The position numbers and the translations under genes are program-made. A DNA stretch of 64,000 bases from Asparagopsis taxiformis (lineage: Eukaryota > Rhodophyta > Florideophyceae > Bonnemaisoniales > Bonnemaisoniaceae), in the NCBI GenBank assembly GCA_030407315.1, contig JALQPE010001871.1:62001-126000 (forward strand). The letters run 5' to 3'. How positions within the stretch are numbered: position 1 is the first letter of the stretch; each line of letters begins with the position of its first letter. Shown here one piece after another: positions 16,619 through 62,670 of this stretch. Below the pieces are notes generated by a model that was given only the letters and a program-made list of their open reading frames with translations, ran no database searches and was not told the DNA's origin.

Positions 16619-16620
16619 AC

Positions 16621-24741: not shown

Positions 24742-24839
24742 CATATGAGAGGGACTGATGTTTCTCACTCGGGAAGAAGAAGGAGACGATTTCAGACCTC
24801 GCGAAAAAGGCTGCAAAGTGGTCTGAAACGGTTGGGGTG

Positions 24840-27904: not shown

Positions 27905-27967
27905 AGTGAGGCAGTAAAAATCACTGTCTCACCGTACTGTCTGAGGCCCTCTTTTCAACACCGTAGT
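27905..27967. repeat. Internal copy of the CACTA right terminus
   Basis: GTACTGTCTGAGGCCC, then CAACACCGTAGTG at 27955-27967, repeats the terminal ~65 bp found at 34375-34439. It has no matching AA flank, so it looks like a relic of a nested or rearranged CACTA end. Confidence 0.8.
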
Positions 27968-29263: not shown

Positions 29264-29300
29264 GGGCTGAGAGTTCCGTCCCCCTCCCACCTAGGGAAGG

Positions 29301-33690: not shown

Positions 33691-33734
33691 CCACCACTCC
33701 CAGACACCGAATTTTACTATATCAGGACACTACT

Positions 33735-34085: not shown

Positions 34086-34199
34086 GTGTTGGTTCCATCT
34101 ATTGTCCCAGGCAGCGTATTTCACTATCCGGCCATGTTGCCTTGGCCAATACAAAACACTATCCGCCAACACTGCCCAGTACAGTAAATTACATCATAT

Positions 34200-42164: not shown

Positions 42165-42307
42165 TTCCACGTCTGTGTTTTCGGAAGTGGACGCGGACGT
42201 CCAGTCTCTCTAGTACGGGTCCTAGTCGGCCCCGAGATTTACTAGAACAAATGAACGTCCGCGTCCAAAAAAAAATAAAAATCCACTTTCTCTAGGATAT
42301 GCGGACG
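42165..42307 (+). repeat. GGACGTCC left end of transposon copy G2
   Basis: Starts with CGTCTGTGTT, TCGGAA, TGGACGCGGACGTCCA as at 10165, then CTCTAGTAC words. The two flanks to the left are unrelated, so about 42165 is close to a true transposon end. A 27-codon frame (42130-42213, plus) runs across the boundary by chance. Confidence 0.55.
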
Positions 42308-42697
42308 TCCACTTTCTCTAGTACATATGGCGGAATACTAGGGCCCGACATCCACTTTCTCTAGTACATATGGCGGAATACTAGGACCCGACATCCACTT
42401 TCTCTAGTACGTTTGGCGGAATACTAGGACCCGACATCCACTTTCTCTAGTACATATGGCGGAATACTAGGACCCGACATCCACTTTCTCTAGTACATAT
42501 GGCGGAATACTAGGACCCGACATCCACTTTCTCTAGTACATATGGCGGAATACTAGGACCCGACATCCACTTTCTCTAGTACATATGGCGGAATACTAGG
42601 ACCCGACATCCACTTTCTCTAGTACATATGGCGGAATACTAGGACCCGACATCCACTTTCTCTAGTACATATGGCGGAATACTAGGACCCGACATCC
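42308..42697 (+). repeat. 43-bp tandem repeat, nine copies
   Basis: Period 43 bp from 42308: TCCACTTTCTCTAGTACATA, then TGGCGGAATACTAGGACCCG and ACA. Copies differ by at most one or two bases, so the array expanded recently. It lies in the subterminal zone of G2. Confidence 0.95.
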
Positions 42698-44342
42698 AGT
42701 ATACAATATATCAGCGAAAACCGGGAGGGAAGAAATTACAGCGGATGGTAAATTCAGGGCCCATATCGGACCGTATTTTATTCTCTCATTTAGGAAACTG
42801 CTCGTATACAATACGTCTCTCTAGAATAGGGAATACATATCTGGTCAGAATAGGAAATAAATACCCGGTTAGAATAGGAAATAAATACCCGGTTAGAATA
42901 GGAAATACGTATCCAGCCAGAATACAAAATACCTGTCAGCATATCGTCGATCACCCATCTCCCTCACTATCGCGTTCTCCCTACCATCCGAACGCCATGC
43001 ACCACCATCCGCACATACTGCAAGAACCCTCACGACCTAGATTACAAAAAATACGCTCCTTCCCAATACCATCCCCGCTTTCCTCGACACCACCCCAGCC
43101 CATTAAATCATCAAGACATCAAACACGAACATGGTCAGCAAAATCTTACACCACTTGAAACGCACTCTCACTTCTATCGTATGCCCCAAAATATACACAT
43201 ACCAGAAACACCTCACAGCTTCATTCCCCATCTTCCTACATCCCTTCTTCACTCTCCTTCAGTCCTGCCGTTCCTGCTTCACCACTCCTGCATCACATAC
43301 ACAACATCAGAATCAACCACAACAGTCAGACTCAAAAGCAACGCTTACCACGACAGATATCCTAGAAACTCCCTTACTTACCTCTCCGAGAGGATGACTG
43401 AATCATCCATCCTACACAAAATACAAACCATGATCCAAAAACCTTGCAATGAATAATCAAAGTCAGCAGTCCATATCTTCGCAAAACAAGTCTTGGTGCT
43501 CAGTAAAACTTACCTTCTGTCATCAACATTCCTGCATCATCTACACAACATCGGAATCAACCACAACAGTCAGACTCAAAACCAACCTTCCATCACAGCA
43601 TACTTTCAAAACTCGCACACTTACCTTCGCTCCACACAATACACACCATGACTCAATAGGCTTCCAATGAAAAATATCGCATCAACGGAAATAGTCAGAC
43701 TCAAAACCAACCTTCCCTCGCTGCTTACTTTCAAAACTCGCACACTTACTTTACCTGTTCCATCCTGCACACAATAAAAACCATAAATCACGTAATCGTG
43801 TAGCCAAGAAAAGTAGTCAGCATTCCGCATCTTCGCACAACCGGTCTGGGCGCCCAATGTGACTTACCTTCCGTCATCACTATTCCTCCATCACCTACGC
43901 AACATCGGATTCAATCGCAACAGTCAGATTGAAAACCAACGTTTCCCTCGCTACATACCCTGAGAACTCGCAAATGTACCTCTCATCCATCCTACACACA
44001 ATACAAACCATGATCCAAAAACCTTGCAATTAACAATAATCATAGTCAGCAGTCCATATCTTCGCAAAGCACATCTTGGCACTCAATGAAACTTACCTTC
44101 CGTCATCAACATTCCTGCATCATCTACACAACATCGGAATCAACCACAACAGTCAGACTCAAAATCAACCTTCCCTCACAGCATACTTTCAAAACTTCAC
44201 GTACCTCTCTTCCATCCTCCGCTCAATACACACCATCAGTCAACAGGCTTCCCATGAAAAATATCGCATCAACGGAAATAGTCAGACTCAAAACCCACGC
44301 TTCCCTCAACGCATACCCTCGAGGGTAGAGGATGGAACGAAG
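42698..44342 (+). repeat. Pyrimidine-rich noncoding region with irregular repeats
   Basis: A short array of AATAGGAAATA...CC(C/A)GTTAG words (42830-42930), then C/A-rich sequence. A ~100-bp segment with AACATCGGAATCAACCACAA and CAGTCAGACTCAAAA recurs, diverged, near 43290, 43510, 43690, 43870 and 44095. No gene is supported. Confidence 0.65.
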
Positions 44343-44977: not shown

Positions 44978-47900
44978 ATGGAATGCAAGTATGAAGGGTG
45001 CTTCTACTACTGCGTAGATGCTTATGCGCTCGCGCTGCATGAGCGAACGTGTCGCTACCGTTTCAACCCCTCTCCCCAACATTTCAACAACGCTCGTGTC
45101 CCTGCCGTCACCCATGAGCCTGCTCGAAACGGCGACCATGATTCCCCGCAACCCAGCTCCCCAGACCCAGAATCTGGTCGTGCTTCCTCCAGCGACTCAC
45201 CCTGTGACGCTTCACTGCCACCAACCTCAACCCCCTCCCGCGCAGACCTCCTCGTGCAATCCCTCGCCGCCAGTCTCACAACCCTCGAGTACAAGGCCGG
45301 CGCTGGCCGCGTGAGCGAAGTCATCACCATCCTACAAGACCCCGCATTCTCCCTAGAAAAGTTCAACAGCGCCGTTCGCACCGTAGAAGAATGTCGCCAC
45401 GTTACCGCTTCCATGGTCGAAACACATTTCCGCACCGAAGGTTACAAGAGCCACATCATTCCAGACAAAACTGGTAAGTACTCGGCACAGCTGTACCTCC
45501 GCGACCCAGTCGACATGCTCCGCAGGCAGTTAGCACTGGCTAACGACCAAAATACTCTCTTCCACCCCTCCCCACAGACCGCCCCAGACGGCACCGCAAT
45601 ATTTTCTCATCCCCTACACACAGAATTCGCGAAAACGCTGCACCAGGTTACTAGACAGCGCGTGCAGCTCTCGGAAGATCCACAGGTCGTATGGGCAGAG
45701 GAAAATGATCCCACCGCTTCCTCCTTTGCCGGCCTCCTCCAAGTGTACTCCGACAAGAGCAGCACAAGCCTCAAGAGCTCCGCAATCGTCGCATACCCCA
45801 TACACGTCACACTGCTCAACTTCTCCGCCCCCCTCCGTCGCCACTGCATCCGTACCGGCCTCACCATCGTCGGGTATCTTCCGTACATTGTTAACCCTTC
45901 GTCCAACGCCTTGTTCGGTGATGAAATGCCGACAACCTCTAGTTCTGCTAGTCGCGCTCGCAAAATTGATATTCTTCATAAAGCACTCGAAAAAGTGTTT
46001 TCGTCCCTATCCACCGCGTTCTCTTCCGGGTTCCCCTGCACAGACTCCACTGCAACTGCCCGCCAATGCTTTCCCATCCTAGCCAATTATTGCTGCGACT
46101 TTCCAGAGGCCAAAGAGCTCTCATGCACTCGCAACAGCACTACCACCACACATCCCTGCCACCGCTGCTACATCCCCGCCACTCAACTTGAATCCAGCGC
46201 GCCACACCAGCCCCGCTCCCTCGATGATACACGCTCTGCACGCCAAGAGAGCGCTCAGGAGCATACAACTGCTCCGCTCGAAGCTCTCTCCCTCCTCGAA
46301 CAACACTCTGTCCTCGAATCGACCGCTCTTTTACCCACCAACAGTCCCCTAGACCCCTACAACATTTTCTCCTTCGAGCCTCTGCACAATCTCCACCTCG
46401 GCATCTCAAAGCTCATCAAACAGTGCATTGTCCACCGCCTCAGCTCCCCAGACCTCACCACCACTGCCTCCCATTCCGGGACACCTCGCACCTTCAAGAA
46501 GGTGAAAAAATCCATCCTCGCCGGCTCAAACAGCATTCTGTCCGCTATCGAACGCGACTACTACATCACCGGTCTTCATGTCGACTTCTCCAAGGGTGAG
46601 AAGGGCACCAATTTGAACGGCCTCTTCACGGAGGACGGCATACGCGGCATGCTCGCAGCCAAAGACTATCACCATGTCGACATGGTGTTCCCTTTCATCG
46701 CAGCATTCATTGACACATGCTGTGACGAAGTAGATACAGCCCCCCTCACTTCCATCTGCACGCAATACTCTGACCTCGTCGCATGGGTCATGAAACGCGG
46801 TCGCATCAAGCACTGGACTGCCGCCGAACTAGAAAGCCTCCAGAACTCCATTTCCTATTTCAAACAATCAATGCTCTCCACCCTCGGCCCATTCCACACC
46901 ACAGGTCTCAAAACTTTCAAGTTCCATCTTCTAGACCATCTTCCCGGTGACTTGCAGAGATATGGCGCCCTGGAACACATTGATGCAGGCCCCTACGAAC
47001 ACTCGCATCTTCTGTTCAAACAGAGTTATAGGAAAACCTCTCGAAGGCGCTCCACAGCCATGGAAGAGACTATTCGCCACATGGAATTCTCCTTGGCCAC
47101 TCCAACTGGTCATACCCCATCGAACACATTGGGAAACGCACGCATGATATCGCCCACAGACGGTGCAGTACTCGTTCGCGACGGATTCACCGTTGCACTG
47201 CACGACTTTGCCTCCCTGCTGCCCGATGCAACCCTCCTCGTTGCAGATATCGACGGACAGCCCGATCCTGCCACTCTTTTGCCGCTGCACAACTCCTCGT
47301 TCCCGTCTGGCACCATAACGCTATTCCAGCAACTCGGTGACACAGCTGCACAAGCGTTCCTCACCCTCGCTAGACTGCGCGCCACGGCAGAAGGCCCTCC
47401 AATACATGACATGGACATTTCCGTCACCGTGGTAAAGTCCGCCTACGTCATGGGAGGGTACGTCCCAGATGCCGACGACTTTGACCCGCACAGTGGCATG
47501 CTTCGCCCCACAAACGTGTCGAGGCACAAGCAGCAGCGCGTCTTTGCAACTTCATCGTTCGGCCCCGCAAAGAGATCGCAGTACTCCTTTGTCGTCATCT
47601 CCGGAACTGCCGATGACTACAGAACCATATGGGTAGGGCGCGTCCTGGCACTGGTACGCCTGCAGTCTCCAAACCTGTTTCAACCTGTAGAACTCGCTTT
47701 CGTTCAGTATATGACCTGCTTTGCCCCAAAAACCGCTGTGGAAAAATCACTTGGGTGCATTTGTTTAAAGTGGTCCACATGGGACCCGGACAACGGATCC
47801 GTTGACAGCAATGACACTGCATCCCACAGTGCAGGTGGTCCTTGGTTTGACCTCATTCCTGCATCTACTATATCTGGCACCGTGCACATCGTACGAAGTA

Positions 47901-48016
47901 ACTTTCCAGTCAAGCCATTTACGAAACAAATGCACTGGTCGGACCACCGTTTCTATCTCAACCGCTTCTACACCAACACTGATTACCAATTCACAGATGA
48001 TAATGAAGAAGAATAA
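44978..48016 (+). CDS. Plavaka/CACTA-like transposase
   Basis: An intact 1012-residue protein. The N-terminus carries a C2HC zinc finger (Cys3, Cys8, His21, Cys25). A low-complexity linker follows. The core has features shared by the Plavaka/TNP2 group: SFEPLHNLHLGISKLIK near residues 466-480, and FKFHLLDHLPGDLQRYGALE with GPYEHSHLLFKQSYRKTSRR near 650-691. The latter resembles the H..DH..GD..RFG / E..H...K..Y..TS.R block of those transposases. I could not place the full catalytic acidic triad. The intact frame, the 43-bp array and the palindrome upstream suggest a recently mobile element. It probably supplies transposition to related non-autonomous units here. Confidence 0.6.
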   Translation: MECKYEGCFYYCVDAYALALHERTCRYRFNPSPQHFNNARVPAVTHEPARNGDHDSPQPSSPDPESGRASSSDSPCDASLPPTSTPSRADLLVQSLAASLTTLEYKAGAGRVSEVITILQDPAFSLEKFNSAVRTVEECRHVTASMVETHFRTEGYKSHIIPDKTGKYSAQLYLRDPVDMLRRQLALANDQNTLFHPSPQTAPDGTAIFSHPLHTEFAKTLHQVTRQRVQLSEDPQVVWAEENDPTASSFAGLLQVYSDKSSTSLKSSAIVAYPIHVTLLNFSAPLRRHCIRTGLTIVGYLPYIVNPSSNALFGDEMPTTSSSASRARKIDILHKALEKVFSSLSTAFSSGFPCTDSTATARQCFPILANYCCDFPEAKELSCTRNSTTTTHPCHRCYIPATQLESSAPHQPRSLDDTRSARQESAQEHTTAPLEALSLLEQHSVLESTALLPTNSPLDPYNIFSFEPLHNLHLGISKLIKQCIVHRLSSPDLTTTASHSGTPRTFKKVKKSILAGSNSILSAIERDYYITGLHVDFSKGEKGTNLNGLFTEDGIRGMLAAKDYHHVDMVFPFIAAFIDTCCDEVDTAPLTSICTQYSDLVAWVMKRGRIKHWTAAELESLQNSISYFKQSMLSTLGPFHTTGLKTFKFHLLDHLPGDLQRYGALEHIDAGPYEHSHLLFKQSYRKTSRRRSTAMEETIRHMEFSLATPTGHTPSNTLGNARMISPTDGAVLVRDGFTVALHDFASLLPDATLLVADIDGQPDPATLLPLHNSSFPSGTITLFQQLGDTAAQAFLTLARLRATAEGPPIHDMDISVTVVKSAYVMGGYVPDADDFDPHSGMLRPTNVSRHKQQRVFATSSFGPAKRSQYSFVVISGTADDYRTIWVGRVLALVRLQSPNLFQPVELAFVQYMTCFAPKTAVEKSLGCICLKWSTWDPDNGSVDSNDTASHSAGGPWFDLIPASTISGTVHIVRSNFPVKPFTKQMHWSDHRFYLNRFYTNTDYQFTDDNEEE

Positions 48017-48093: not shown

Positions 48094-50379
48094 TCAACCA
48101 TCCTCCATTACGCCAAAACCGTTATCAGCAGTGGCTGCATGGCGCCGCTCCATGCCCCCATACTGTGGGGCATTGATTTCGACATTCAGGTTTGCAGTCA
48201 GGTGTCCAGCATATGGGTCAACGACGAAAAGTTCTGCGCCAATTAGTCCTTGCGCAATCACACAATCCATTACAGCACCGAGGTTTGACGTAATATGCGA
48301 TTGAATCCAATCCTCGGACACTAGAACAAGTGATGAGCAGCGGTTTACATCATCAACGACATGAACAATTCCAGACCCCTCTCCGCTTTGCCACACTTCA
48401 ACAGCCTCTCTCGTCACAGTACGGCTTGCAAACACATGCCGTGACTGTGCACTAGTCCGCTGTTCGCTCTCGACAACGTCCGTTTCTTCCCTTGCTTGCG
48501 AGCCTTGGAGACAAGACATGCAGTACACCACCATACCAACTAATTGCTGAAAAGCTACCCCCACATATTGACTGTACCGCCTTGTAAACTCCTTCTGCCG
48601 TGCACCTCCTTTCCCCTTCGGTTCATCCAAACACTCCACAGTAGTCACTAGCCAAGCATCCAGGCGCGCCAGCGTTAGTATGCTCGTCTCTATGTCCATT
48701 ACTTGTTCTGGTCGTATCGAATAACCCCTGAAGATGTCCAGCACATTCACAGCTACTCGGTTGTTAAACCATGCATCACCATTCACTTCCATTTCGAAGC
48801 TGTCAGGAACCAAGCCTTTGCTGTATCGCAGCTCTGAGAACGGTGCCGTTCGCCACCTCCCCATATCCAAATCACCGTTACTTTCCCGTTTCAAAAGCTT
48901 CTCAGACGCTTCGCGCTTTTGTTCCTCTCGCTCGTCCATCTCAGCTCGCGTCGTCAGCATCGTGCATCTAGACATTAATTTCGTGTACCCCAGCGAACCG
49001 AACAATCTGTCCCTCGCATTACGCTTCCGTGCACTCATCACGTCGGACAGTTTCTGCGTCACCTTCACTTTCAATTCCTTGCTCCCCGCCACAGCCTCTT
49101 GACAGCACACACGCTGCTCCTCATCGGAAAACACATCACACCACGGACTTTGACGCAGTACGTGTCGCACCAAGTCATTCAGCAGATCACTCTCGTCCCT
49201 GTACGAAGGTGTATACCACTGCAGATTCTTGATGATATAGCCCGGAGGGGTAGCAATATATCCTACACCGTTTTCGCTCCAAAGTGCCCCTTCTACCGGC
49301 TCTACCTCGATGGTACGTCCAGTCCAACGTCTCTGCGTTTGTTCCGCTATAGGGTCCAGCTCCATAGTCTCGTTCTTGCACCACTTTGTCAGGTTTTCCT
49401 CAACCGCCCTAAGAACTCCAAGGTATTTCACAGGAATGGCTTTCTGTATTTTCGACTTACCGCCACCGTGATCACTGATTCTACCTGTTCTCGCAATTGC
49501 AGTAAGGCTGGCATTTTCCGCCTGCAGAGTCTTCACCTTAGCCTCCAACGCAACAATCTCCGTGGTGAGCGCCTTGTTTGCTATGTCCTGGCTAAACACT
49601 TTTTTTTCCAGCTCCGCGATCTTCTTCTTCTGCGCATTGATGCGACTCGCCATTAAATCGATGGATTCCGGCGGATGCAACCTCTCTGCCCTCACCGTCC
49701 CCCCATCTCCCACGCTATCGGGAATATGATGTCCTCCATCGCCAATAGCCTGACGTCGCGGGGGCGTTACGCGCATATTTGGCACCAATGACAGTCTGTT
49801 GTGACGAGGCCCGCACTCCGGCTGCTCTCTCCCCTCAGTACCACCTGACCGCCGATGATAGTTGGCATCCTGTGAACGTTGCTCAGAAACAACATCCCTT
49901 GCCGCTATCCTCGGGTCCCTGACTGCATTACCTGCTGGGGCTGATGTACTCGGCATAGTTGGCGCAGTGGGGGTCACAGCCTCCAGTGTCTCGGGAACCC
50001 CCGGCTGGGACTCCGTCTGCAGCACCTCCGCATCTGCCAACCCGGGAGGAACTACCTTTGCCATAGCACTCTGCCGCAATTCCAACATGTTTTGAGCCAC
50101 TATCATGTCATCATCATGATGTTCACTGTCCCTGCGAGCACGCTTGCCTCGGTCAAGCCCCATCTCTCTCCGCGCCGTTCCTCCTTCCTCACTTTCTCGC
50201 TGCGGATCCCCAGTTCTGCGCCGGTCCGTCTTGCGACTACCGGACCGCGGTTCAATGCTGCCGGTAGGCCCAGACCGCTTCTTCGCACGGGATTGTCGGG
50301 CACTCGATACAGCAGCTGCTGACCGGGTTTTCTGGAGGCCCGGAGGCTTTGGAGCTTTCTTCGCAATACGCGGCGGCAT
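48094..50379 (-). CDS. Coiled-coil basic protein, putative accessory protein of the transposon
   Basis: A 761-residue frame of unknown family. Residues 1-85 are very basic (AKKAPKPPG, RAKKRS, RGKRARR), suiting nuclear or DNA-binding use. Residues 90-235 are disordered. Residues 243-295 form a leucine-heptad coiled coil (KKIAELEKKVFSQDIANKAL). The C-terminal half looks globular and has no motif I know. It converges on the transposase gene with 77 bp between stops, an arrangement that suggests the two belong to one element. A DNA-binding accessory role like TnpA of plant CACTA elements is possible but unproven. Confidence 0.6.
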   Translation of the reverse strand: MPPRIAKKAPKPPGLQKTRSAAAVSSARQSRAKKRSGPTGSIEPRSGSRKTDRRRTGDPQRESEEGGTARREMGLDRGKRARRDSEHHDDDMIVAQNMLELRQSAMAKVVPPGLADAEVLQTESQPGVPETLEAVTPTAPTMPSTSAPAGNAVRDPRIAARDVVSEQRSQDANYHRRSGGTEGREQPECGPRHNRLSLVPNMRVTPPRRQAIGDGGHHIPDSVGDGGTVRAERLHPPESIDLMASRINAQKKKIAELEKKVFSQDIANKALTTEIVALEAKVKTLQAENASLTAIARTGRISDHGGGKSKIQKAIPVKYLGVLRAVEENLTKWCKNETMELDPIAEQTQRRWTGRTIEVEPVEGALWSENGVGYIATPPGYIIKNLQWYTPSYRDESDLLNDLVRHVLRQSPWCDVFSDEEQRVCCQEAVAGSKELKVKVTQKLSDVMSARKRNARDRLFGSLGYTKLMSRCTMLTTRAEMDEREEQKREASEKLLKRESNGDLDMGRWRTAPFSELRYSKGLVPDSFEMEVNGDAWFNNRVAVNVLDIFRGYSIRPEQVMDIETSILTLARLDAWLVTTVECLDEPKGKGGARQKEFTRRYSQYVGVAFQQLVGMVVYCMSCLQGSQAREETDVVESEQRTSAQSRHVFASRTVTREAVEVWQSGEGSGIVHVVDDVNRCSSLVLVSEDWIQSHITSNLGAVMDCVIAQGLIGAELFVVDPYAGHLTANLNVEINAPQYGGMERRHAATADNGFGVMEDG

Positions 50380-50585
50380 AATGAAGCTTTCCCGGAAGCG
50401 ATGGAACGATTGAGTTGCACGAGATACAAAAAAGATTGCTGTATAGTGTCGGTAACCACAACGGTCTGCGATGAACGTTCAGGTCAGGTCAAGTACCGGA
50501 TAATACGCCAACAGCCCAGATTGTATACGGTAGGCAGTCATCAACAGTATTTAATGAGGTACAATTACAGCTGTCGAGCTAGGCC

Positions 50586-51170
50586 GCGAGCACCCCTATG
50601 TCCGGAAGACGTCCTGATTTGAATTAAAATTTGGGCTATTCTCAAAAACATGCACATGTGAACATGTTTTTGAGATGGGGGTGTGCCGTACGGCACAATC
50701 GACCGCCCAAATCGATGTTTTTTGCAATATTTTTTTGTGCCCGAAATTTTAGAATTTCTGGGCTGGCCAGCAATGCAATCGAGCTGGACATCCACCGGAC
50801 GTCCATTTCAGGTTGGTCGTGAGAGAGCGGGGCGGGACCATGATGGAACAAGGACCAAGACCTGTCCCTGGCGTATTGAGCCTGAAATTGACCCTTCGTC
50901 AGACGCCATTTAGCCTTACAGTTGGTGCTTACAGAAGCCAGTGATGACCCCGCTCGGGGCGGCGGTCGGTTCCTGGGGCCGTTGTGGCCAAATTAGACAC
51001 CCTGATTTGAATTAAAATTTGGGCTATTCTCAAAAACATGCACATGTGAACATGTTTTTGAAATGGGGGTGTGCCGTACGGCACAATCGGCCGCCCAAAT
51101 CAAGGTTTTTTACAATATTTTTGCTGCCCGAAATTCTACAATTTCTGGGCTGGCCAGTAATGCATTAGCT
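50586..51170 (+). repeat. Left P-type repeats
   Basis: About 1.5 units of the ~390-bp P repeat, with the palindrome GTGCCGTACGGCAC at 50683-50696 and 51071-51084. Confidence 0.9.
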
Positions 51171-52254
51171 ATGTGCTCTAAACCGATTCTAACAAGCAGA
51201 AAGAATCCTCTCCTTCATGACGATGCTCTCGAATTGAGTGCAATGCAACGGACTCCCTCCAGGAGAACGACAAAGCATCGTCTTTTGCAAGACATTTTCG
51301 TACGAAAAATAATCGAAACACATATTTGACTTTAACCTAACAGCTATCGCGAGCACCGTACTCAGCTAAATTTCCTCTGTAATTTCCTTCCTCCAACCAA
51401 TCAATAGCCGCTTGGTCACAGGCTTAAAAGCCTTCCACTATTTGTCCTATCCATCGAAGAGGGTTCGATCCAGGCCTTGATGGGTGTGGAACCCGAGAAC
51501 TTGAAAATGGAACATATTGCGACAGAGATGAGATGTCATTCTCTTTCGTTTACTTTTTTCTAACAAGATTCTAAACGTCTACGCAGCGGAACGAACCCAA
51601 TGTCGTCCGTCCGTTTTCAGCCCGGTGAGATGTTTTTGCCATTAACGGAGGTGGAGGCGGCTATGGAGGAAGCCTGCGGTTCGGGTATTCTTTCCATTAA
51701 CGGAGGTGGAGGTGGCGGCTTTGGAGGAAGCCTGGAGAACATGTGAGATGTCAGTACCCATGGATCACAAGAAAAACATGTAGAGGTCCAGTTTGGATAT
51801 TGTTGCCATTAACGGAGGCGGAGGAGGCGGCTACGGTGGAAGCCTGGAGAGCATGTGAGATGTCAGTACCCATGGATCACATGAAGAACATGTTGAGGTG
51901 CGGTTCGGATATTCTTTCCATTAACGGAGGCGGAGGAGGCGGCTACGGTGGAAGCCTGGAGAAGAATAGAATAGTCCTATACCCATGGATCACAAGTAGA
52001 CGTAGTTGGGCTCCTTTTCGAAGCCCATTCGTCTCTTGAATAAATTTAGCACCCAAATCATATACGATTGCCGAGTTGACACCCCGTATGTCTCGTTGGT
52101 AGAAATAGCAGGGGTTCCACCACTCAGCTGGCGGGAAGTAGTTACTGATTATATGAGATATGGCTTAGCTCCCGCCAAAACCGATAGCTCTGGGCTCAGG
52201 TTCTCCAAATGTGGTTATACGAATGTGTTCTGACAATGGTAGAAGACGAATATC
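51171..52254. repeat. Spacer with a GGCGGAGG-rich minisatellite
   Basis: From about 51640 to 52000 a ~100-bp unit recurs four times with TTAACGGAGG(T/C)GGAGG, GGCT(A/T)(C/T)GG and TGTCAGTACCCATGGATCAC words. Read in one frame the GC-rich part gives Gly-rich peptides (NGGGGGGYGGSLE), but no long frame exists. The remainder of the spacer holds nothing I recognise. Confidence 0.65.
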
Positions 52255-52450
52255 TGCATCCTGCTTTGAATTAAAATTTGGGCTATTCTCAAAAACATGC
52301 ACATGTGAACATGTTTTTGAGATGGGGGTGTGCCGTACGGCACAATCGACCGCCGAAATCGATGTTTTTTGCAATATTTTTTCTGCCCGAAATTGTAGAA
52401 TTTCTGGGCTGGCCAGCAATGCATCTGAGTCGGACATCCCCACGTCCAGT
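52255..52450 (+). repeat. P-type repeat directly upstream of the methyltransferase-SET gene
   Basis: A half unit with the palindrome at 52330-52343, ending in GGACATCC and GGCCGTCCGGATGTCG words, about 330 bp before the gene's ATG. It may act as a promoter or operator. Confidence 0.85.
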
Positions 52451-52774
52451 GGCCGTCCGGATGTCGCTCACCTGGTAAGCGTGAGGCACCTGTGTCAACC
52501 TATGTGACTGGCGGCCTTGCAGTACAACACTCAAAGGCAGGGAATCACAATCTTTTTAAAATTTTTTCTCTACCACGTATCCGTCACAACTTATTACCTA
52601 CACCGGTTACGGGTTTCAAGACCTTTCCAGTGCTGTGTACCCGTATACTCTGTTCCGTTCGATATCAACCAGTGTTCCTCACGAAAGAGTGCAAACGTCA
52701 CGAGATACGTCGTCAAATTTGACTGTCTCGCCGAGCGGTCGCCATCCTGTACCGAATTTTCCACTCATTCCATT

Positions 52775-55700
52775 ATGACGAATAAGCGCAGGCGCAACAG
52801 CAATCCGATCGTTGACGACGCAACCGTGCCAATTCTGCGCGAACCCGCTAGCCCTTGGGAGGATTCTAGTGACATGGGTACACGTCGAAACGTAGGTCGC
52901 GCCGCCCGCGAAACTACTCTCGCTGGCAAAGACTTCCTCCGCCTCTTGCTGGATTTATTCGCCCACTCAAGTTTCGCAGACTTGACGGACAAGCCGGGAG
53001 GTTTCACATACGCGGACCTTGGCGCTTGGGTTGCGCAGGGCACGGAAGAACAATTTGTGGCGCTGCAAGGTCGACTCAGCATGTCCTTCAGCGGTCGTTC
53101 GAAGAATGCTGGAGTCGAGGCGGATGTTGCCGAAATCGTCATGGCAGAGATGAACGTTGAGCGAGCCAAGCAGATTGTTCGTCTGGCATTACCCATTGCC
53201 GAGTTTTCAAGACAGGATGAGCGTATCGGGCAATGGGTTGAGCACTGCATCCTTTCTGGGATCGTGCCGCAGACCTTCCTTATTGGATGTAACATGCTTC
53301 CTTCGCCACTACAGGCGCCGCAGCGCGGGGAACCAAGCGCCTTCGTTCTTGCTCCACCGGAAACGTTCGAGGTATTGATGTATTTCCAAGCGTTGTCTAT
53401 CATCCGAAATCACAACAAGAACCTGCCGCGTCGCCGAATAGGAGATGCGGCCGAAGAGGGGAACGAAGCCGCACGCGTCCCAGCCCATCGGAAAAGCACT
53501 AATCGAGCTTGTTACGTGGTTCAAGTTTTATACCATGCTTGGACCGATGTGGCCTACGCCGCAAAGTTTTCCAGCTTCGAAGAGTTGATGGCGCCGTACA
53601 TCATTTTCGACAGCAGTGAGCATTGGTTTGACGTGCTCGATGAAGGTCTATTCGCACCGATGGAGCAGAAGCTAGATCTCTACCACAACAAAGCTCCCCT
53701 ATCTCATCCTGATGGATATGGTGGAAAAGTAGAGACAAGAACCAGTGCGCAGCACAGTGCATTTAGGGACCTTGTGAGGAAGTTCTTCGACCGGTTGCAG
53801 TTTCTTATCGTCAACCCGGACCTGTACACCTGGCCGGAGTCCGACCGCTGGGGGGCACTGGAAATATACTTCTCAAGCGGAAATCCGGACAAGCTGCCAG
53901 CGTATTTTGACACCCTCGACGAAGACGTTATGGCTGTCCTCCGCCCGGCACCACAAGCCGCGGACGCAGAAAAGGTCCCCAAGCCGGTTGATGACACTCC
54001 CACTCGTCGCAACACAGGAGGGAGAGGTTTGGTTCCGTCGACAAGACACACAACCAGGCTTCAACTTGGACCTGGGAGGACCAGTCTTACTGCCCAAGGG
54101 CCGTCTCCCCCGTCACCGTCACCCCATGCGACAGAAGAGCAGGAAAGTGAAGGGCAGGCTCTCGCAAAGGACTTTCTTTCGAAAATGAGTCAGTATTGCC
54201 GGGTGTACGACGTCCCTTTCGAAGATTTGGTCAGTGCCGACGAGAGCCGAGAACACGTGCCCATCACGGGCAACGTTCAGCTCATTCTGACTGATCCGCC
54301 CTACAATGTTCGTCGTAAGAGGAACGATTCCAACTCTTCGTACGACAGGCTAACTGCAGAAGATATGCAGGCTAGCATCGAAGTGTTTGACGAGCTGTTG
54401 CGCCCCGGTGGCCACGGCATCGTGTTCTGCTCGGTTTTGCAGTTCTACGAATGGTTCCATTACTTGGAAACGTACAAAGGACCGCAGTCAGAAGGCCCAA
54501 CCGATACTGCTGCCAGTGATGACGGGTCGGATGAAGAAGAGGTTACGTCCATGAATTCGGACTCCGAAGCATCGCAGCACAGTGGCGAAGAAAGTGCGGA
54601 TGAGGAGGAGGACGAGGAGGAGGAGGACGTCGTTCGGAATTCAGTTTTCTTCGTTGACGAGGTACCTCTGTTGTTTGTCCGACTACCTGGGCACCTCTAT
54701 CAAATGCCGGGGCGGAAGAGGTACCAACGCATGAACATGGCAGAGGTCGCTATCCACTTCTGGAAGCGAGGTGTTCCGTTCAAGACCGGAAGCGAGATGG
54801 TGGCCTATAGGAACCACGGATACATGGACGGCACGTACCCGGCGTGGTGCAACGTCACCATCAATATGCCCGCCATCGATTCGAATGAGATGGTGTGGCG
54901 AACAAGGAGCACAACCGGTGCTACGGTCAGAGTTCGTGCAGAGCAGAAGAGCGTCGCTCTCATGATGGAGTTGATCAGCCAGCATTCACAGCCTGGTGAT
55001 ATTGTTGTCGATCCATTCTCTGGCACTTTCGCAACGGGAAAAGCAGCTATGAGCTTGCCTGAGCACCGTGTTTTCGTCGGCAGTGACATGGACAAATTGT
55101 GTGTGGTACGATCGCTTCCAAAGCTGTGTGCAGTCATGTCACGTGTAATTCTTTCAAACAACACTGACATGAGGGTCACGACAGAAGCGAAACAGAGTGC
55201 TGAGAAGTTCTTGGCGTCCCCCTCTGTCACGATGCGTACGCAGAGGGAACGCAGGATCATCGAACCCCCACCTGGCCTTCCCCTGTACCAGAGGTTCCCG
55301 AAATATATTCGGCAGTACCTCTGGCAGCTGTGCCCAGAGTCGATTGCGTCGCGCGAGCACATGGAGAAACCGGTACATTATTGGCCACCTTCCCTGCGCC
55401 GCTGGTTGCAAACTGAAAACCCTCGCGTGATGCGGGCACACGATTGTGTTGCGAAAAAATTGAGCGTTCGACCATCGCTGATTAAGCATCCAAATGCAGG
55501 AAGAGGGCTCTTCGCTGAACAGACATTTAATGTTGGTGACGAAGTATGTGCATACTACGGAACTGTTGTGTACTCTGATATGAGCAAGGAGTCGATGAGG
55601 TTCGCGTACGGAGAGGGTCACATGGCGATAACGAAGGAAACATTCTTGATGTATGCTATCAAGCTGTATGCAACAGCGGAGGACGACGAAAACATCGAGC

Positions 55701-55972
55701 ATCCAATTTGGATTGTTCCGGCTCCGTTCTGTTCGGCGCAGTTCATCAACGACCCGCGGTATTTGCGAGGTGAGGACACTCCGGCGGAAGACACCAGGCG
55801 GATGGCCAACGTCGAGTTTGTCGAGAACTACAGCAGCGGTTCGACGGGGAAGAAGCTCAAGGCGAAGGACCTAGAAAATCCGAAGATCATTGTAGTACGT
55901 GCAATCCGCGATATCCGTCCGGGGCAGGAGCTCTACGTTCATTATGGGACAGCGTTTAGAGCATGGAATTAG
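52775..55972 (+). CDS. DNA methyltransferase (beta-class, DPPY) fused to a SET domain
   Basis: A 1065-residue intact protein. The start is placed at 52775 (MTNKRRRNSNP, basic N-terminus); the frame is open further up to 52517 without a good start context. Residues 1-430 are of unknown fold. The methyltransferase has DPPY at 507-510 (TDPPYNVRRKRND) before the AdoMet-binding motif at 746-755 (DPFSGTFATG), the motif order of beta-class N6-adenine/N4-cytosine enzymes; DPPY favours adenine. An acidic insert (576-620) separates them. The SET domain spans about 900-1063: AGRGLFAEQ (908-916), FINDPR (990-995) in place of the usual FINHS.., ANVEF, and GQELYVHYG with Tyr1057. The altered N-D may change activity or specificity. 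One protein could thus mark both DNA and protein. The fusion is carried between inverted repeats as cargo. Confidence 0.85.
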   Translation: MTNKRRRNSNPIVDDATVPILREPASPWEDSSDMGTRRNVGRAARETTLAGKDFLRLLLDLFAHSSFADLTDKPGGFTYADLGAWVAQGTEEQFVALQGRLSMSFSGRSKNAGVEADVAEIVMAEMNVERAKQIVRLALPIAEFSRQDERIGQWVEHCILSGIVPQTFLIGCNMLPSPLQAPQRGEPSAFVLAPPETFEVLMYFQALSIIRNHNKNLPRRRIGDAAEEGNEAARVPAHRKSTNRACYVVQVLYHAWTDVAYAAKFSSFEELMAPYIIFDSSEHWFDVLDEGLFAPMEQKLDLYHNKAPLSHPDGYGGKVETRTSAQHSAFRDLVRKFFDRLQFLIVNPDLYTWPESDRWGALEIYFSSGNPDKLPAYFDTLDEDVMAVLRPAPQAADAEKVPKPVDDTPTRRNTGGRGLVPSTRHTTRLQLGPGRTSLTAQGPSPPSPSPHATEEQESEGQALAKDFLSKMSQYCRVYDVPFEDLVSADESREHVPITGNVQLILTDPPYNVRRKRNDSNSSYDRLTAEDMQASIEVFDELLRPGGHGIVFCSVLQFYEWFHYLETYKGPQSEGPTDTAASDDGSDEEEVTSMNSDSEASQHSGEESADEEEDEEEEDVVRNSVFFVDEVPLLFVRLPGHLYQMPGRKRYQRMNMAEVAIHFWKRGVPFKTGSEMVAYRNHGYMDGTYPAWCNVTINMPAIDSNEMVWRTRSTTGATVRVRAEQKSVALMMELISQHSQPGDIVVDPFSGTFATGKAAMSLPEHRVFVGSDMDKLCVVRSLPKLCAVMSRVILSNNTDMRVTTEAKQSAEKFLASPSVTMRTQRERRIIEPPPGLPLYQRFPKYIRQYLWQLCPESIASREHMEKPVHYWPPSLRRWLQTENPRVMRAHDCVAKKLSVRPSLIKHPNAGRGLFAEQTFNVGDEVCAYYGTVVYSDMSKESMRFAYGEGHMAITKETFLMYAIKLYATAEDDENIEHPIWIVPAPFCSAQFINDPRYLRGEDTPAEDTRRMANVEFVENYSSGSTGKKLKAKDLENPKIIVVRAIRDIRPGQELYVHYGTAFRAWN

Positions 55973-56204
55973 GGTCACGAAAGATGTTTTCATTTCGACT
56001 ACAAATAAAGCTACGTTCCAGAGTTGAAGTATATCATATAATGCAGAATGTCCAGCCACCATTAGTCCAGGGTGAAACCTATTCGGCAGTACTCGCCTGT
56101 CAAAAACCAATCGTTCACACTCTAGGTGCACTTCGTCCGAGCAGTGAACCTGACTGCTTGGTTGCTGTTATGCGTGCAGATGCAAAATACAAGACCAAGT
56201 TGAA

Positions 56205-57314
56205 ATGGACGCCCGGTGGATGTCCAGCTCAGTTGCATTGCTGTCCAGCCCAGAAATTCTACAATTCAGGGCAGAAAAAATATTGCAAAAAACATCGATT
56301 TCAGCGGGTCGATTGTGCCGTACGGCACACCCCCATCTCAAAAACATGTTCACATGTGCATGTTTTTGAGAATAGCCCAAATTTTAATTCAAATCAGGGT
56401 GTCTAATTTGGCCACAACGGCCCCAGGAACCGACCGCCGCCCCGAGTGGGGTTGTCACTGGCTTCTGTAAGCACTAACTGTAAGGCTAAATGGCGTCTGA
56501 CAAAGGGTCAATTTCAGGCTCAATACGCCAGGGACAGGTCTTGGTCCTTGTTCCATCATGGTCCCACCCCACTCTCTCACGACCAACCTGAAATGCACGT
56601 CCGGTGGATGTCCAGCTCGATTGCACTGCTGGCCAGCCCGGAAATTCTAAAATTTCGGGCACAAAAAAATTGTAAAAAATCAACGATTTCAGCGGGTCGT
56701 TTGTGCCGTACGGCACACCCCCATTTCAAAAACATGTTCACATGTGCATGTTTTTGAGAATAGCCCAAATTTTAATTCAAATCAGGGTGTCTAATTTGGC
56801 CACAACGGCCCCAGGAACCGGCCGCCGCCCCGAGCGGGGTCATCACTGGCTTCTGTAAGCACTAACTGTGAGGCTAAATGGCGCCGGAAGATGGGCCGAT
56901 TGCAGGCTTCAAGCCTAAGTTATGCTAGGGAGAAATCTTCTTCCGTGTTTCATCATGGTCCCGCCTTACTCCCTCAACAGAAACACTACTCACCCATCAC
57001 GTTACTCATATTCCGTGCACTTTATATTAGTAGTGAACCCGCCTGCTTAGTTGCTGCAATGCGTGGATGTAGGCAGCACACGACCAACCTGAAATGGACG
57101 TCCGGTGGATGTCCATCTCAGATGCACTGCTGGCCAGCCCAGAAATTCTAAAATTTCGGGCACAAAAAATCTTGCAAAAATCAACGATTTGGGCGGGTCG
57201 ATTGTGCCGTACGGCACACCCCCATCTCAAAAACATGTTCACATGTGCATGTTTTTGAGAATAGCCCAAATTTTAACTCAAATCAGGGTGTTCCCCGGAT
57301 AAAGGGGTGCTCGC
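56205..57314 (-). repeat. Right P-type repeats, inverted
   Basis: About three units in reverse orientation, with the palindrome at 56315-56328, 56703-56716 and 57204-57217. Short frames across these repeats on both strands recur in every copy and are artefacts. The 230 bp between the gene stop and this block hold nothing recognised. Confidence 0.9.
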
Positions 57315-57635
57315 AGCCGCCCCAAAAGCCGCCTAGCTTGACAGCTGTAATTTTAACACATTACACATCAAGGACACTGCCTGCTTCACGCCACCTCGTC
57401 AGGTTTCGAGAGCCCGACTCGGGCCCGTTCTGAACGGACACTCACATCTCGATTGCCTGTCTTGCATTCCAGCGGTCACGATAGGTGTGTACCTAACAAA
57501 ATTTCGGTTGTATTGTGTTATTATTTCCAGCGATTGGCGTTCACGACCATTCTTCAACTTAACGTGAAACATACCATCCACATCACTCGAATACGTCAAC
57601 GTCAACCATCTCTTTTCCTTTCCAACTCAACAACC
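57315..57635 (+). promoter_or_regulatory. Upstream region of the ParB-like gene
   Basis: About 320 bp between the end of the 6.7-kb unit and the ATG. The final 90 bp is C/T/A-rich leader (CATC, CAAC words). No TATA box is obvious. Confidence 0.35.
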
Positions 57636-59630
57636 ATGGCGGATACGCATTTCAGCAGTTTGTTTTCAACGGTTTGCGGCGATCAAGTGAGCGCGTCAGC
57701 GGAGTCGCGCGGACTCAAGCGCGGCGTCGATGTCGACTTGTTTGCGGACGTGGACGGTGCGGCTGTGCATATTGGGACGGCTTCGGTGAGCACTGCTGGT
57801 GGCGATGTTGGCCTTCCGCGCACGCTGCACAACCACAAGCTGCCGGAAACCGACGAGGCCGACTATATCGTCGTGCGCAACATTGCGACTAAGGACAAGT
57901 TCAAGGACCTCCCGTTCCCGTACATGTTTGATGGCGCCGAGGGACCGCCGGAGACGATGGGTGGAGCATACGCCGCGGCGTTTTACCCTTGGGATACTCG
58001 GATGATGCGCCCCGCTGCGGAGGATGGCTCTAGCGACATTCGTACCCCTGCTGCAGCGTCAAACTTCAACGCAGCGACGAACCAGGCCAGCTCGGGACGG
58101 ATGCCCAGTACCGGTCCAGCAGGCGAAATCACTGGTTCGGGGGGTACGAAGCATCCAGCACGCTCCGTCCCGGTTTCGGGAGGCACGAAGCGCCCTGCTC
58201 GCTCTGCCAGAGCCTCCAGTGGAGGCACGAAGCACCCTGCTCGCTCCAACGTCACCGAAGCTACTACGCAGGACGTAACCGAGGTGGACGACGAACCGGA
58301 GGTGGCGGAAAGCATTCGTGAGCAGCAGGGGACGCAAATTATGGTGCCCAAGTTTGTGACGTCGGATTACGTCGGAGAAGGAGCGACTGTGTTGGTGAGG
58401 CAGCTAGTGGAACCGGCCGTGACCCTTCGCGATGTCAAAGAAGACCACGTGGAGGACCTGCGCAACAATATGTTGGCGGTGGGGTATGTGAGCTCTTCGC
58501 GTATCACTGTGACGGTGCTGAGGTCGCAGAACACGCATTTGTCCGCCGACACGCGTCTGTTCCAGAATGGCAAATTCCATGCCAATGCGAACGTGACCGT
58601 GATCGACGGACTGCATCGTCTCAATGCTATGCATAGCATTGCGGATGACTTCACGCGCCTCACCCGTATGCACAGAACCAAGCTGCCACAGGAGGCAAAC
58701 CGCTTGCGCTGGGTTACTCAGCCTCTGGATGTGTACTACCTTCGCCGCAAGGACGACAGTGATCTCCAGCCTCATGAGATCATCCACAAGAGTGCAGAGT
58801 CGAACCATACGACTGGGACGCAACTGACGGAGCGCTCCCTGGTTCGAATCTTGTCGTCCATCCAGCAGTTCATCCGTACGATTGCTGTTGCAAACAACGT
58901 GGAAAACGCTGGCGACTTGCGTGAGTCTGATGTCATCCGAACATTGTTCGAGGCGCAGTTCATGGGGATGATGAATTCGACGAACACGGCTCGGCGGTGG
59001 ACGCGTTTGGCTATAGCAACGCTGAAGCATCCTGTTCTCGACGACGTGTTGCGTGAGCTGAACAATTCCGAGCGCCGCAACGAGATTGGGATAACGCACC
59101 TGGACCACAAGATAGTGCGCGAGTTGCTGGAAGAAAACTTTGTCTTCGTCTTGCGTGGTCTTTCGGAGTACTTGAACCCTGCTCATGGCGGACGTCCGGA
59201 TGGACGCTTTGACGTGAACGACTTTTATACATACGTCCGTCGCGTGACTGCAATAGCAAATTCTCTGTACGCTGCGTTTGGGCGCCCAAAGAGTATTATG
59301 CGCAAGTCATTTCTGAGCACAGAGATGGCAATTGGGTCGGTTAAGCAGCCGAAGGAGTTGCAATGGCATCTCACCAATGCCATTGCAATGTATAGAGGGG
59401 ACGACCGGAGCAGTGAGGTTCGAATGCGACGGAGAACCACGCGTTTACAGGATTTGGAAACGAACTTGAAAGAGTTTTTCAATCCGACATTGAAGAAGAA
59501 GACTAAGGCTCGACGCAAACGCCGCCCTTCTGCTGCCAATGTGAGACTCACTCACAAGAAGCAGCGGAATAACACTGATTTCGGTATGCACAGAATGTAC
59601 TTTCGAAACCAGAATCTGAAAATTTTTTGA
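57636..59630 (+). CDS. ParB/Srx-fold-like protein, intact copy
   Basis: A 664-residue protein; the ATG at 57636 sits in CAACCATGG, a good eukaryotic context, although the frame is open from 57453. Residues 1-165 are of unknown fold. A short repeat (GGTK-H/R-PARS three times, about 170-208) forms a linker. From residue 250 there is a ParB-N-like domain: LRDVKEDHVEDLRNNM (where ParB has a V..I...R..F..L segment), then VIDGLHRLNAM at 322-332 in the place of the ParB GERRL box. The C-terminal half is helical, ending in a very basic KKKTKARRKRRPS tail suited to DNA binding. In bacteria ParB-like domains often accompany phage methyltransferases. A near-identical broken copy lies at 14631-15816 next to the dioxygenase gene, which shows the gene is mobile. 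Confidence 0.7.
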   Translation: MADTHFSSLFSTVCGDQVSASAESRGLKRGVDVDLFADVDGAAVHIGTASVSTAGGDVGLPRTLHNHKLPETDEADYIVVRNIATKDKFKDLPFPYMFDGAEGPPETMGGAYAAAFYPWDTRMMRPAAEDGSSDIRTPAAASNFNAATNQASSGRMPSTGPAGEITGSGGTKHPARSVPVSGGTKRPARSARASSGGTKHPARSNVTEATTQDVTEVDDEPEVAESIREQQGTQIMVPKFVTSDYVGEGATVLVRQLVEPAVTLRDVKEDHVEDLRNNMLAVGYVSSSRITVTVLRSQNTHLSADTRLFQNGKFHANANVTVIDGLHRLNAMHSIADDFTRLTRMHRTKLPQEANRLRWVTQPLDVYYLRRKDDSDLQPHEIIHKSAESNHTTGTQLTERSLVRILSSIQQFIRTIAVANNVENAGDLRESDVIRTLFEAQFMGMMNSTNTARRWTRLAIATLKHPVLDDVLRELNNSERRNEIGITHLDHKIVRELLEENFVFVLRGLSEYLNPAHGGRPDGRFDVNDFYTYVRRVTAIANSLYAAFGRPKSIMRKSFLSTEMAIGSVKQPKELQWHLTNAIAMYRGDDRSSEVRMRRRTTRLQDLETNLKEFFNPTLKKKTKARRKRRPSAANVRLTHKKQRNNTDFGMHRMYFRNQNLKIF

Positions 59631-59958
59631 TGTTGATTGACTAATCATAAGTTGATTGAATTGTGGCCAATGAGACGAAGACATTGACTGACTGAGTGGT
59701 ATTGTGCTGACAGTATCAAGTATAACCCCACGTGTCCAGCAGTTAGCGAAACACATACACAGACGTCCGTCTCTGTGCAGCGGTCAATTTTTATGCCGCA
59801 CAACGCAACGCGTCGACTAAAGTACAATGCAAACCGACGCATCATCGGAATACATTTTGCATCGATCCCGACCATATCAACTGCACAACAATCATGTTAA
59901 AACGATGCCAAACCGACGAAAGCAACGCCGCGTTATCGTTGGCTAGCGTGCAAGCACC
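59631..59958. other. Intergenic region, no gene seen
   Basis: About 330 bp. The ParB-like homology to the other copy ends at about residue 643; the last residues and this region are not shared. A CAGACGTCCGTCTCTG word near 59761 resembles the GGACGTCC motifs and may mark a transposon edge. Confidence 0.3.
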
Positions 59959-62670
59959 ATGTTTTCCATCGCGGAAAGACTACAGCGGTACAGTTGTCCC
60001 GGCGACAATCTGCGCGTCGCAACCGACATGTACGCCGCCGAGCAATTGTACGAGCGCTGCGTCGAGGAGCACAACCACATCGGAGCCATGTATCGTCTCG
60101 CAACCATTCTACGCGTCTCCGAAAACATGCACGACGGCCGACGCCCCATGCAACTGTCCCAACGCTGCGTCGATGAAGGCAACCATCCCGGCGCCATGTT
60201 CGATCTGGCACGCATGTATTCCGACGGTAAGTTCTCCGAGCAGGATTTCGTACGAGCCGTCGATCTGTATCAACGCGCCATACAACTAGACAACGACGTG
60301 TGCGCGATGTTCGAGCTGGCAATGATCTATGACGTCGGCGAGAAAGACGTTCCAATGGACGTCTTGCGCGCGATGAACTATTATCAAATGAGCATTGACG
60401 TCGGCCAGCATCTGGAGCCAATGTTCTGGCTCGCTCGATTACTCATCTCCGATATCATGCGGCCGAAACGCGATGTGTCGCGCTCAAAGCGTCTGTTCAC
60501 CATGTATGTCGAGCGATGTGAAGAGCCGATGCCGATTATCGAGATGTGCAACGAGCTGATGTACGGATCGTCCAATCTCCCACGAGACGCCGCACTAGCC
60601 GCGTGCTTGCTACAGGCATGCGTGGAACGATGGGACGAGTGTAATGCAATGATACCACTCGCGGAAATCCTTCTGAGCGGCGCTTCCGTTGTCGCCAGAG
60701 ACGCCACGCGTGCGATACGTCTATGTGAACGAGCCGCCAGTGTTCGCTGGGAGTATTCACTATCAACGGCTGTGTTGGCGCGCAAAATCGCCTATGGATC
60801 ATCGCAGATTCAGGCCAATGTGCAGCTCGCTGTGTATCTGTGTCAGATGAGTATTGCGAGGGGGAACGATGCGGCCGCTATGCTTACATTGTCTGAACTG
60901 CTGTTAAAGGGCGCTCCGGGCGTGGAAAAGGACGTGGATTGTGCGATGAATTTGGTGGATAGAGCTTTCGGAAGTAATTGTGTCAAGTTTCAGATGTCCA
61001 AGATTATACAGCTTGCAAACGATATGGCACATGGAAAGGGCGGAATGGCGAGGAATCCGTCGTTTGCCGTTTTGTTGTTGGAGAAATGCATGAATATGAA
61101 GGATTTCAAATCTGAATCGACACTGGCTCTTGCGGATGTCGTGCTTCAAACGAAAGCAGTTTTGGATATTGAGCGGGGCATTCAACTATGTCGTCAGTTG
61201 GTTGGTTTGGAATCATATTGTGAAAAGCTCGAGGATCCTGCAGAGTCGATTGAATTTAGCGATGCGGGTAATGGTGCGCTCGTGATGCGTCTGTTGAACT
61301 GTTCATCGACAGTAAACATGGCGCAGCCGCTATGGTTACACTTGCGGAATATCTCATCACTGGAGATATGGGCATTGCAAAGGACAGTGAACGTGCCGTA
61401 TGGCTCTGTGAACGTGCGTTGGAGAAGAGCAGGGACTGTAGCGACAAAGTGGTCGGTATCGCAAAACAAATGGATTGTGCGAAATCGTGCAAGCCAACGG
61501 ACAATGCACTCACGATTCGTCTATTACAAATCTGCGTCGACAAATCCAACAACACAGAGGCCATCGTCATGCTCGTCAAAATTACTGTGTTCAAACAAAG
61601 CGAATCGTAACACGGACCACGCACTACGGCTGTGCGGCAAACTAATCGATAGCGACGTGTCTTGCGACAGAGCGCTTCATCTCGCGGAGGAAATCGGCAA
61701 GGGTACGACGCGCGTCGCCAAAAACATGCCATTGTCCATAAGAATCTGCGAAATGTGCATGGAGAAATGAGACGATCCATGCGCGATCGAAACTGGCGTG
61801 GAAATCATGTGCGGTTCCACAGAAGCTAGCGACGTAAATCGCGCAATCCGTCTCTGCGAACGCTATGTAAACAACAATATATGCTGCAGATCATCATCCG
61901 CATCGCGCAAAAAATCTGCATCGAAACATCTCAATACGTACAAGACCCATCCATATCGCAACGTCTACTAAACGTCTGCCTCAGCGCACGACATGACCTC
62001 TCCGCCATATTCCTGCTCGCACAAATCCTACTGCAAGGCATACGCGGGGTTCCATGCGACCCCGCGCGCGCCATGCAGCTATGCGCGATGTGCAGACGAC
62101 ACGACGTGTCGTACATTGCGCGGCTGCGACGCGTTGTGGCGCAACTCGGGCGTCAAAGCGGCGACAAGAAGAGTCTACATCTTGCGATCGCGCTGTGCGA
62201 GCTGGCGCTCGCGCACGCGGACGACACGCGCGTCATGGTGCTTCTGGCCGAGCTGCTGATCCGTCTGGATTACGAATTGCACGGAAGAAGTGATATTAGA
62301 GGCGAAACGACAAGCCGAAGGGCTTGGGAATAGTGCTGTGTTTTATATTGTATCTGATATGTATAATCACGGGTGGAAGGGCGGAGAAACGGCGTTGATT
62401 CGTGCTTATCTGGCGACGAATGCGACGAAGAAAAGAATTTCAGAAGAGTTGAAGACAGTTCATTGGTTTAATCCAGAGGAGTTTGGAGTCAGTCAAGATG
62501 CAATGGGCATGTCGAGATTGGTAGACGCGGCAATGTGCGTGCAGGCGGATCGATTTGTTCATGCACTGCCGTCGAATTTTGGCAGTTGGGTAGCGGGGCA
62601 GAGGGCGGGCAAGGGGAAAGCAGAAACAAAGGTATTGAATTGCATGGATCAAAGCTTCATAGACCGATGA
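59959..62670 (+). pseudogene. Sel1-like repeat protein gene, broken by frame changes
   Basis: Sel1-like (TPR-related) solenoid repeats of about 36-42 residues, with patterns such as A..LYERCVEEHNHIGAMYRLA and LYQRAIQLDNDVCAMFELAMIYDVGEKDV, run along the whole region. Such proteins act as scaffolds, for example in protein quality control. The reading frame moves: frame of 59959 to about 61265, one base over until about 61590, back again to a TGA at 61768-61770 and on to about 61875, over again to about 62285, then back to the stop at 62670. Repeat coding is continuous through all changes, so this is one long gene of about 900 codons with four single-base shifts and one stop. It is either a young pseudogene or affected by sequence errors. 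Confidence 0.75.

Follow-up and report, generated by a model that had tools for sequence, protein, structure and literature searches.

A DNA methyltransferase–SET fusion gene inside a ~23-kb Plavaka-type transposon, with a possible part in keeping the element from being silenced

A 64,000-nucleotide stretch of Asparagopsis taxiformis DNA (contig JALQPE010001871.1, positions 62,001 to 126,000; hereafter the window) carries an intact gene in which a DNA methyltransferase (MTase) domain and a SET domain are joined in one protein. Judged from sequence comparisons, the mobile element that carries this gene is a Plavaka-type DNA transposon of about 23 kb, of which positions 50586–57314 are an internal part, because the ends of the element and its target-site duplications (TSDs) were found elsewhere. 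A preliminary description had taken 50586–57314 to be the mobile unit itself, with the fusion as its sole cargo. The fusion does lie on a mobile element, but those boundaries do not hold, and the cargo is larger than described: the element also encodes a transposase, a protein of 761 amino acids (aa) and, in one of the two copies read, a 1310-aa protein with ParB-like and dioxygenase-like motifs. Copies were counted across the whole genome assembly (141.5 Mb in 3156 contigs, which we infer from gene content to be that of a eukaryote) using short motifs with up to three mismatches, or up to two for the core of the terminal inverted repeat (TIR), and each count was accompanied by a reversed-pattern control.

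The complete element terminates in CGTCTGTGTT...AACACAGACG. Its left end lies about 8.4 kb to the left of 50586, where the 33-nt core of the left TIR occupies 42170–42202 on the plus strand; homology to two other loci (L115 and L116) starts at 42170, and the same left terminal sequence is common to the copies on contigs C503, C436 and C662 and, with its first base changed, to that on C135. Subterminal 43-bp tandem repeats follow at 42218–42784, and their number differs among copies. The right end belongs to a part that is absent from this copy, which is broken off at 59570, where another multi-copy sequence starts. The window also holds the inverted right part of another copy (10171–15817), in which the right TIR lies at 10171–10203 on the minus strand and forms the homology end point of all five loci that reach it (L108–L112); a further locus, L107, falls short because its own contig ends first. 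All four fetched copies that reach the equivalent of 59570 (L087, L092, L095 and L106) run on into the sequence held inverted at 14627–10171 of the window. Four copies in which the two ends were paired measure 23155, 23385, 23385 and 23267 bp, and three of them are flanked by a 2-bp TSD (TA for C503, TA for C436 and TC for C662). Eight right flanks were read, one of them that of the second copy in the window and the rest from seven other loci; their first bases are TA in five cases and TT, TC and AA in the others. Because TIR cores were counted at 2739 genomic places (reversed-pattern control, 0), beside 913–1041 places for the gene motifs, shorter derivatives of the element are suggested to be present as well. 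On C11, C12, C14 and C90, end sequences face inward about 11–12 kb apart, an arrangement suggestive of shorter derivatives.

Between the left end and the fusion gene, at 44978–48016 on the plus strand, lies a gene for a 1012-aa transposase that matches PF18759 (E = 1.6e-24; 87.2 bits against a cut-off of 26.3). Among Pfam profiles with E values up to 0.1, Plavaka was the sole family matched, and the Harbinger transposase was not. Both of the features by which we assign membership of the Plavaka family are present, namely the transposase domain inside the element and TIRs with a 2- or 3-bp TSD. The element is thus judged to be Plavaka-like through its transposase and TSD and not through its end motifs: PMC12730594 gives TGT..ACA for PlavakaA and CATCA..TGATG for PlavakaB, whereas the ends here are CGTCTG..CAGACG, that is, CGTCTGTG..CACAGACG, and neither subgroup fits. 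In nine of the 11 contigs present in both search lists, the transposase and MTase genes are colinear, with a gap of 7174–7176 bp in eight and 6809 bp in one (7175 bp in the window); in the remaining two, the transposase and MTase matches come from separate copies. A 33-mer from the transposase gene occurs at 1041 genomic places and one from the 761-aa gene at 953 (reversed control, 0 for each). The 761-aa companion, encoded at 48094–50379 on the minus strand, has weak coiled-coil-type similarities only, and two database relatives.

The fusion gene occupies 52775–55972 on the plus strand, and its intact 1065-codon open reading frame (ORF), which the preliminary description reported along with its DPPY (residue 507) and DPFSGTFATG (residue 746) motifs, is as described. 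The domain search proposed there places N6_N4_Mtase at aa 501–774 (54275–55096; E = 3.4e-15, 57 bits against a cut-off of 26.7) and SET at aa 909–1058 (55499–55948; E = 1e-6, 29.5 bits, above the Pfam cut-off). Motif IV (DPPY) precedes motif I (FSGT at 748), which is the beta-class order. The N-terminal ~400 aa have no Pfam match and are partly conserved among relatives, and no chromodomain was found among the Pfam matches of the protein (E up to 1). We found seven protein relatives, at 98% and 27–33% identity, five of which pass the cut-offs for both domains. Because diverged relatives also pass for both, the sequences identify MTase–SET as an old fusion and not an artefact. An assembly fusion of two genes is ruled out by these fused relatives and by 86 full-length genomic genes.

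The bacterial or phage type claimed for the methyltransferase half is also borne out, with DpnA, CcrM, MboIIA and RsrI as its solved relatives by profile. Matches on viral contigs number 78 loci, all within residues 497–813, in the MTase half. A viral origin of the whole fusion is rejected on this result, which comes from a search with MTase motifs that would miss relatives sharing the SET part only. Across eight aligned proteins, comprising the window protein and relatives, motif I reads FxGT in every one; motif IV is DPPY in the window protein, P0001 and P0002, and DPPF in P0007. The DPPY form favours a predicted N6-methyladenine (6mA) product over the N4-methylcytosine (4mC) of bdelloid N4CMT, whose motif is SPPY (PMC8885841). 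The SET motifs GxG, YYG, NVxF and terminal xYG are retained where the region is present, except that P0004 is without the last one, and both profile and fold identify this part as a SET domain.

The inverted ends on which the smaller unit had been drawn are real, with GCGAGCACCCCT at 50586–50597 and AGGGGTGCTCGC at 57303–57314, as are the long inverted repeats, one pair of 130 nt that is 91% alike and another of 373 nt that is 96% alike, both far above chance. The two short sequences lie inside these internal repeats, which do not end the element but surround a module within it that occurs either way round. We fetched 20 copies of the MTase–SET gene with their flanks, out of 43 among the matches listed, and in 18 of them the match to the window extends beyond both 50586 and 57314; in the other two (L088 and L090), in which the segment is inverted, it extends beyond the one side reached. 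Homology with other copies passes through the left outer arm (50582–50711, plus strand). A forward array of ~215-bp repeat units (50607–50821, 50995–51165 and 52257–52448, within 50607–52448 on the plus strand), each bearing the 16-bp palindrome TGTGCCGTACGGCACA, faces a reverse array at 56126–57318 on the minus strand, which includes the right outer arm (57189–57318). The palindrome occurs seven times in the window, always exactly; palindrome-bearing arrays are present in the window and in C516, and repeat units recur in six fetched right-hand stretches. As a guess, the palindrome may be a candidate binding or methylation site. At 51629–52014, between the repeat array and the gene, are repeats of 112 bp with the potential to code for INGGGGGYGGSLE-like stretches rich in glycine, and matches at L100 and L103 suggest one extra repeat in this region.

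Orientation was scored at 92 sites of the 761-aa gene among the matches listed (contigs up to C279). At 65 of them a SET site lay on the side expected, no more than 12 kb away, and 27 were unscorable; 57 of the 65 are flipped relative to the window and eight are window-like, and in 54 of the flipped sites the SET site is 2.08–2.15 kb from the 761-aa site. Because 57 sites have the opposite orientation and eight that of the window, we conclude that the inverted repeats bound a module that, by comparison among copies, flipped at least once. Lists of full-length MTase–SET genes, each ordered by similarity to its query (the window protein or P0001), also differ in the open frame around the gene. 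Among the 43 copies nearest P0001, 37 have a frame of 1082 codons and six have one of 1081; among the 43 that are nearest to the window protein, 38 have a frame of 1154 codons, and C426 and C444, which have one of 1082 codons, are flipped.

The family is abundant. The MTase motif was found at 987 genomic places, the SET motif at 958 and the dioxygenase-like motif at 913 (reversed control, 0 for each); multiplied by the full 23 kb, 987 copies would come to ~16% of the assembly, a figure to be taken as an upper guide. At least 43 full-length stop-free MTase–SET genes resemble the window protein and at least 43 resemble P0001, on disjoint sets of contigs, giving at least 86 distinct genes among the matches listed. 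When 22 distinct MTase gene copies were compared, 19 were identical in DNA over 3198 nt and the other three carried five distinct third-position synonymous changes; this comparison is not used as evidence of selection, the list having been ranked by similarity.

Both copies in the window hold parts of the remaining cargo gene. In the first, its ParB-like N-terminal part lies at 57636–59570 on the plus strand, where the copy is cut. In the second copy, on the minus strand, the ParB-like part (14627–15817) is 98% identical to 58379–59570 and is cut at 15817 next to a long terminal repeat (LTR)-like sequence; the dioxygenase-like part (12624–14534, with HND...H...R) is in a frame that differs from that of the ParB-like part, and repeat units lie close to the right end (11825–12394). 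In C516 the two parts form a single 1310-aa frame. BLASTP matches both of them in P0008 and P0009, and alignments show both in P0010. Both labels are at the level of motifs. A DGxHR box, of the GxRR/GxHR form that we take to be the ParB box, is invariant in all four aligned proteins; HND and a later H are likewise invariant in four of four, and the R in the three that reach it. An HxD..H facial triad is a feature of TET/JBP dioxygenases, according to the available part of PMC12730594.

That the element may control its own silencing, as the preliminary description proposed, is plausible. Our preferred reading, which we hold tentatively, is that the MTase–SET protein might methylate the element's own DNA together with a nearby chromatin protein, protecting copies from silencing. 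The DPPY-type domain would add N6-methyladenine, and the arrays next to the genes, with their palindrome-bearing repeats, are a possible site for this; there too, the SET domain would methylate a lysine of histones or of some other chromatin protein. The ParB-like/dioxygenase-like companion would bind the element and oxidise or remove unwanted methyl marks. Acting together in trans, these proteins would leave the copies transcribable and mobile, and the inverted repeats on either side of the MTase–SET gene would allow that module to flip within the element. A more ambitious and more doubtful version is an autonomous transposon-borne epigenetic system, in which a dual writer (DNA methylase and SET in one chain, on an invertible cassette) and a DNA-binding editor (ParB-like and dioxygenase in one chain) may together establish and reset a mark specific to the element on some 1000 copies.

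Several observations weigh against this interpretation. Motif IV deviates from its catalytic form in four of the eight aligned proteins (DPPQ, YPPY, APPQ and DPPL), and therefore DNA methylation would not be required in every relative. The SET domain here has (I/M)ND(P/A)R (MNDPR in P0002) in place of the NH pair that is usual in SET enzymes. Structure prediction of the fusion protein, which the preliminary description had proposed, gave a model with a mean predicted local distance difference test (pLDDT) score of 52, in which the MTase part is poor and the SET part could be compared; the comparison is informative for the SET part alone and barely tests the others. The 1310-aa frame is present in one of the two copies read (C516), the other (C110) stopping at 1048 aa and being followed by a separate 231-aa ORF. 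The ParB-like/dioxygenase-like protein had no match in Pfam or NCBIfam and no credible one in PHROG or the PDB, and the AlphaFold model of its dioxygenase-like part is unusable (pLDDT 37.5). C135, one of the four copies with paired ends, lacks a TSD and has an altered end base. Finally, the near-identity of the fetched MTase genes is partly ascertainment, because searches list the best matches first.

It is unlikely, although it is the strongest of the alternatives, that the protein instead gates transposition, with methylated ends or subterminal repeats marking replicated or occupied DNA for the transposase; Dam methylation gates the bacterial IS10 transposase in this way. The N6-adenine-type motif, the arrays and repeat units described above, and the similar motif counts for transposase, MTase and dioxygenase agree with such a role, but it leaves the SET domain and the conserved N-terminal region unexplained. 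Less likely again is self-restraint, in which a repressive mark placed on the element by its SET domain would make a high-copy family tolerable to the host. Repressive marks are often written by SET enzymes, and there are about 1000 motif copies, many with intact genes; against this, an element is only weakly selected to repress itself, and the extra dioxygenase-like protein points to mark removal instead. We give a still lower probability to the MTase half being a DNA-recognition module only, with SET as the effector: motif IV is degenerate in half of the aligned proteins while the SET motifs persist where their region is present, yet the DPPY and DPPF forms in the other half and the FxGT of all eight speak against it. 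It is improbable that the inverted repeats are a regulatory switch whose flipping changes the promoter driving the MTase–SET gene. The two orientations and the differing open frames would suit a switch, but orientation appears to track sequence subfamilies, so a single ancient inversion, with separate bursts after it, accounts for most of the pattern. That the 6.7-kb unit bounded by GCGAGCACCCCT/AGGGGTGCTCGC moves alone with the fusion as sole cargo is refuted as the main mode and has next to no probability: its inverted repeats and intact gene are genuine, but homology continues past its ends, which rules it out as the element, and the ends and TSDs lie elsewhere.

Other repeats and genes surround the element in the window. 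The family that begins at the break (59571–61770) was scored at 39 other places with 94–100% identity, some of them partial, and holds an ORF with Sel1 repeats (PF08238). An inverted LTR-like pair of ~795 bp (9067–9859 and 15824–16619; TGT..ACA, 92% alike) flanks the second element piece; as element ends these repeats are ruled out, since they look like LTR copies. A Gypsy-type pol ORF at 34492–38139, which combines reverse transcriptase, RNase H and integrase with a chromodomain at its C terminus (PF00385, E = 2.7e-7), lies downstream of a 35-bp tandem repeat array (33667–34191). The region 24313–29330 is dense in a family of short palindromes (TTACAGCAAAGTCATCG..CGATGACTTTGCTGTAA) and also has direct repeats of 172 bp; these are possibly small non-autonomous elements. 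At 1095–6096 are apparently intronless host genes for an RPN11-like JAB protein and an amino acid permease, adjoined by an ORF that is GDPD-like by eye.

In the open-licence literature, outside which most subscription papers lie, we found no report of a transposon protein joining a DNA methylase to a SET domain, or of an MTase–SET protein paired with a ParB-like/dioxygenase-like fusion. Maize En/Spm is a CACTA-type element with subterminal repeats whose own TnpA, which is not known to be a methyltransferase, alters the methylation of the element; it resembles our element in its subterminal repeats and, if our prediction holds, in having its own protein that affects element methylation. Eukaryotic retrotransposons with cytosine methyltransferases likewise place a DNA methyltransferase on a transposable element, but their enzymes are of the 5-methylcytosine type and are not known to have a SET fusion. 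The Plavaka/CMCT transposons, including fungal Plavaka that carry TET/JBP, as described in the available part of PMC12730594, share the PF18759 transposase, TIRs, 2-bp TSDs and a cargo of epigenetic-type enzymes; our element differs from the TET/JBP carriers in its 23-kb length, its MTase–SET and ParB-like/dioxygenase-like cargo and its having no TET/JBP profile match. The same excerpt reports TET/JBP genes on fungal transposons of several families, and SET genes on HarbingerS and MuDR transposons of Phytophthora, which are thus SET carriers like ours but belong to other transposase families, with no DNA-methyltransferase fusion mentioned there (PMC12730594). The Plavaka giant repeats of Amoebidium appalachense are described with tyrosine recombinases, and the terms 'SET domain' and '6mA' occur no times in that text (PMC11244446). 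Bdelloid N4CMT, as presented in the accessible part of PMC8885841, is similar in fusing a bacterial-type N6_N4_MTase to a eukaryotic chromatin domain, in that case a chromodomain that reads a histone mark; it differs in being a host gene with SPPY, whereas the protein here has DPPY and SET and is borne by a transposon.

Transposons carrying one epigenetic enzyme are already known. If active, the MTase–SET protein would link the marking of DNA to that of histones within a single polypeptide, as a 'write-write' counterpart of the bdelloid 'histone-read-DNA-write' fusion, and the element would offer a direct test of whether new epigenetic systems can arise from selfish elements.

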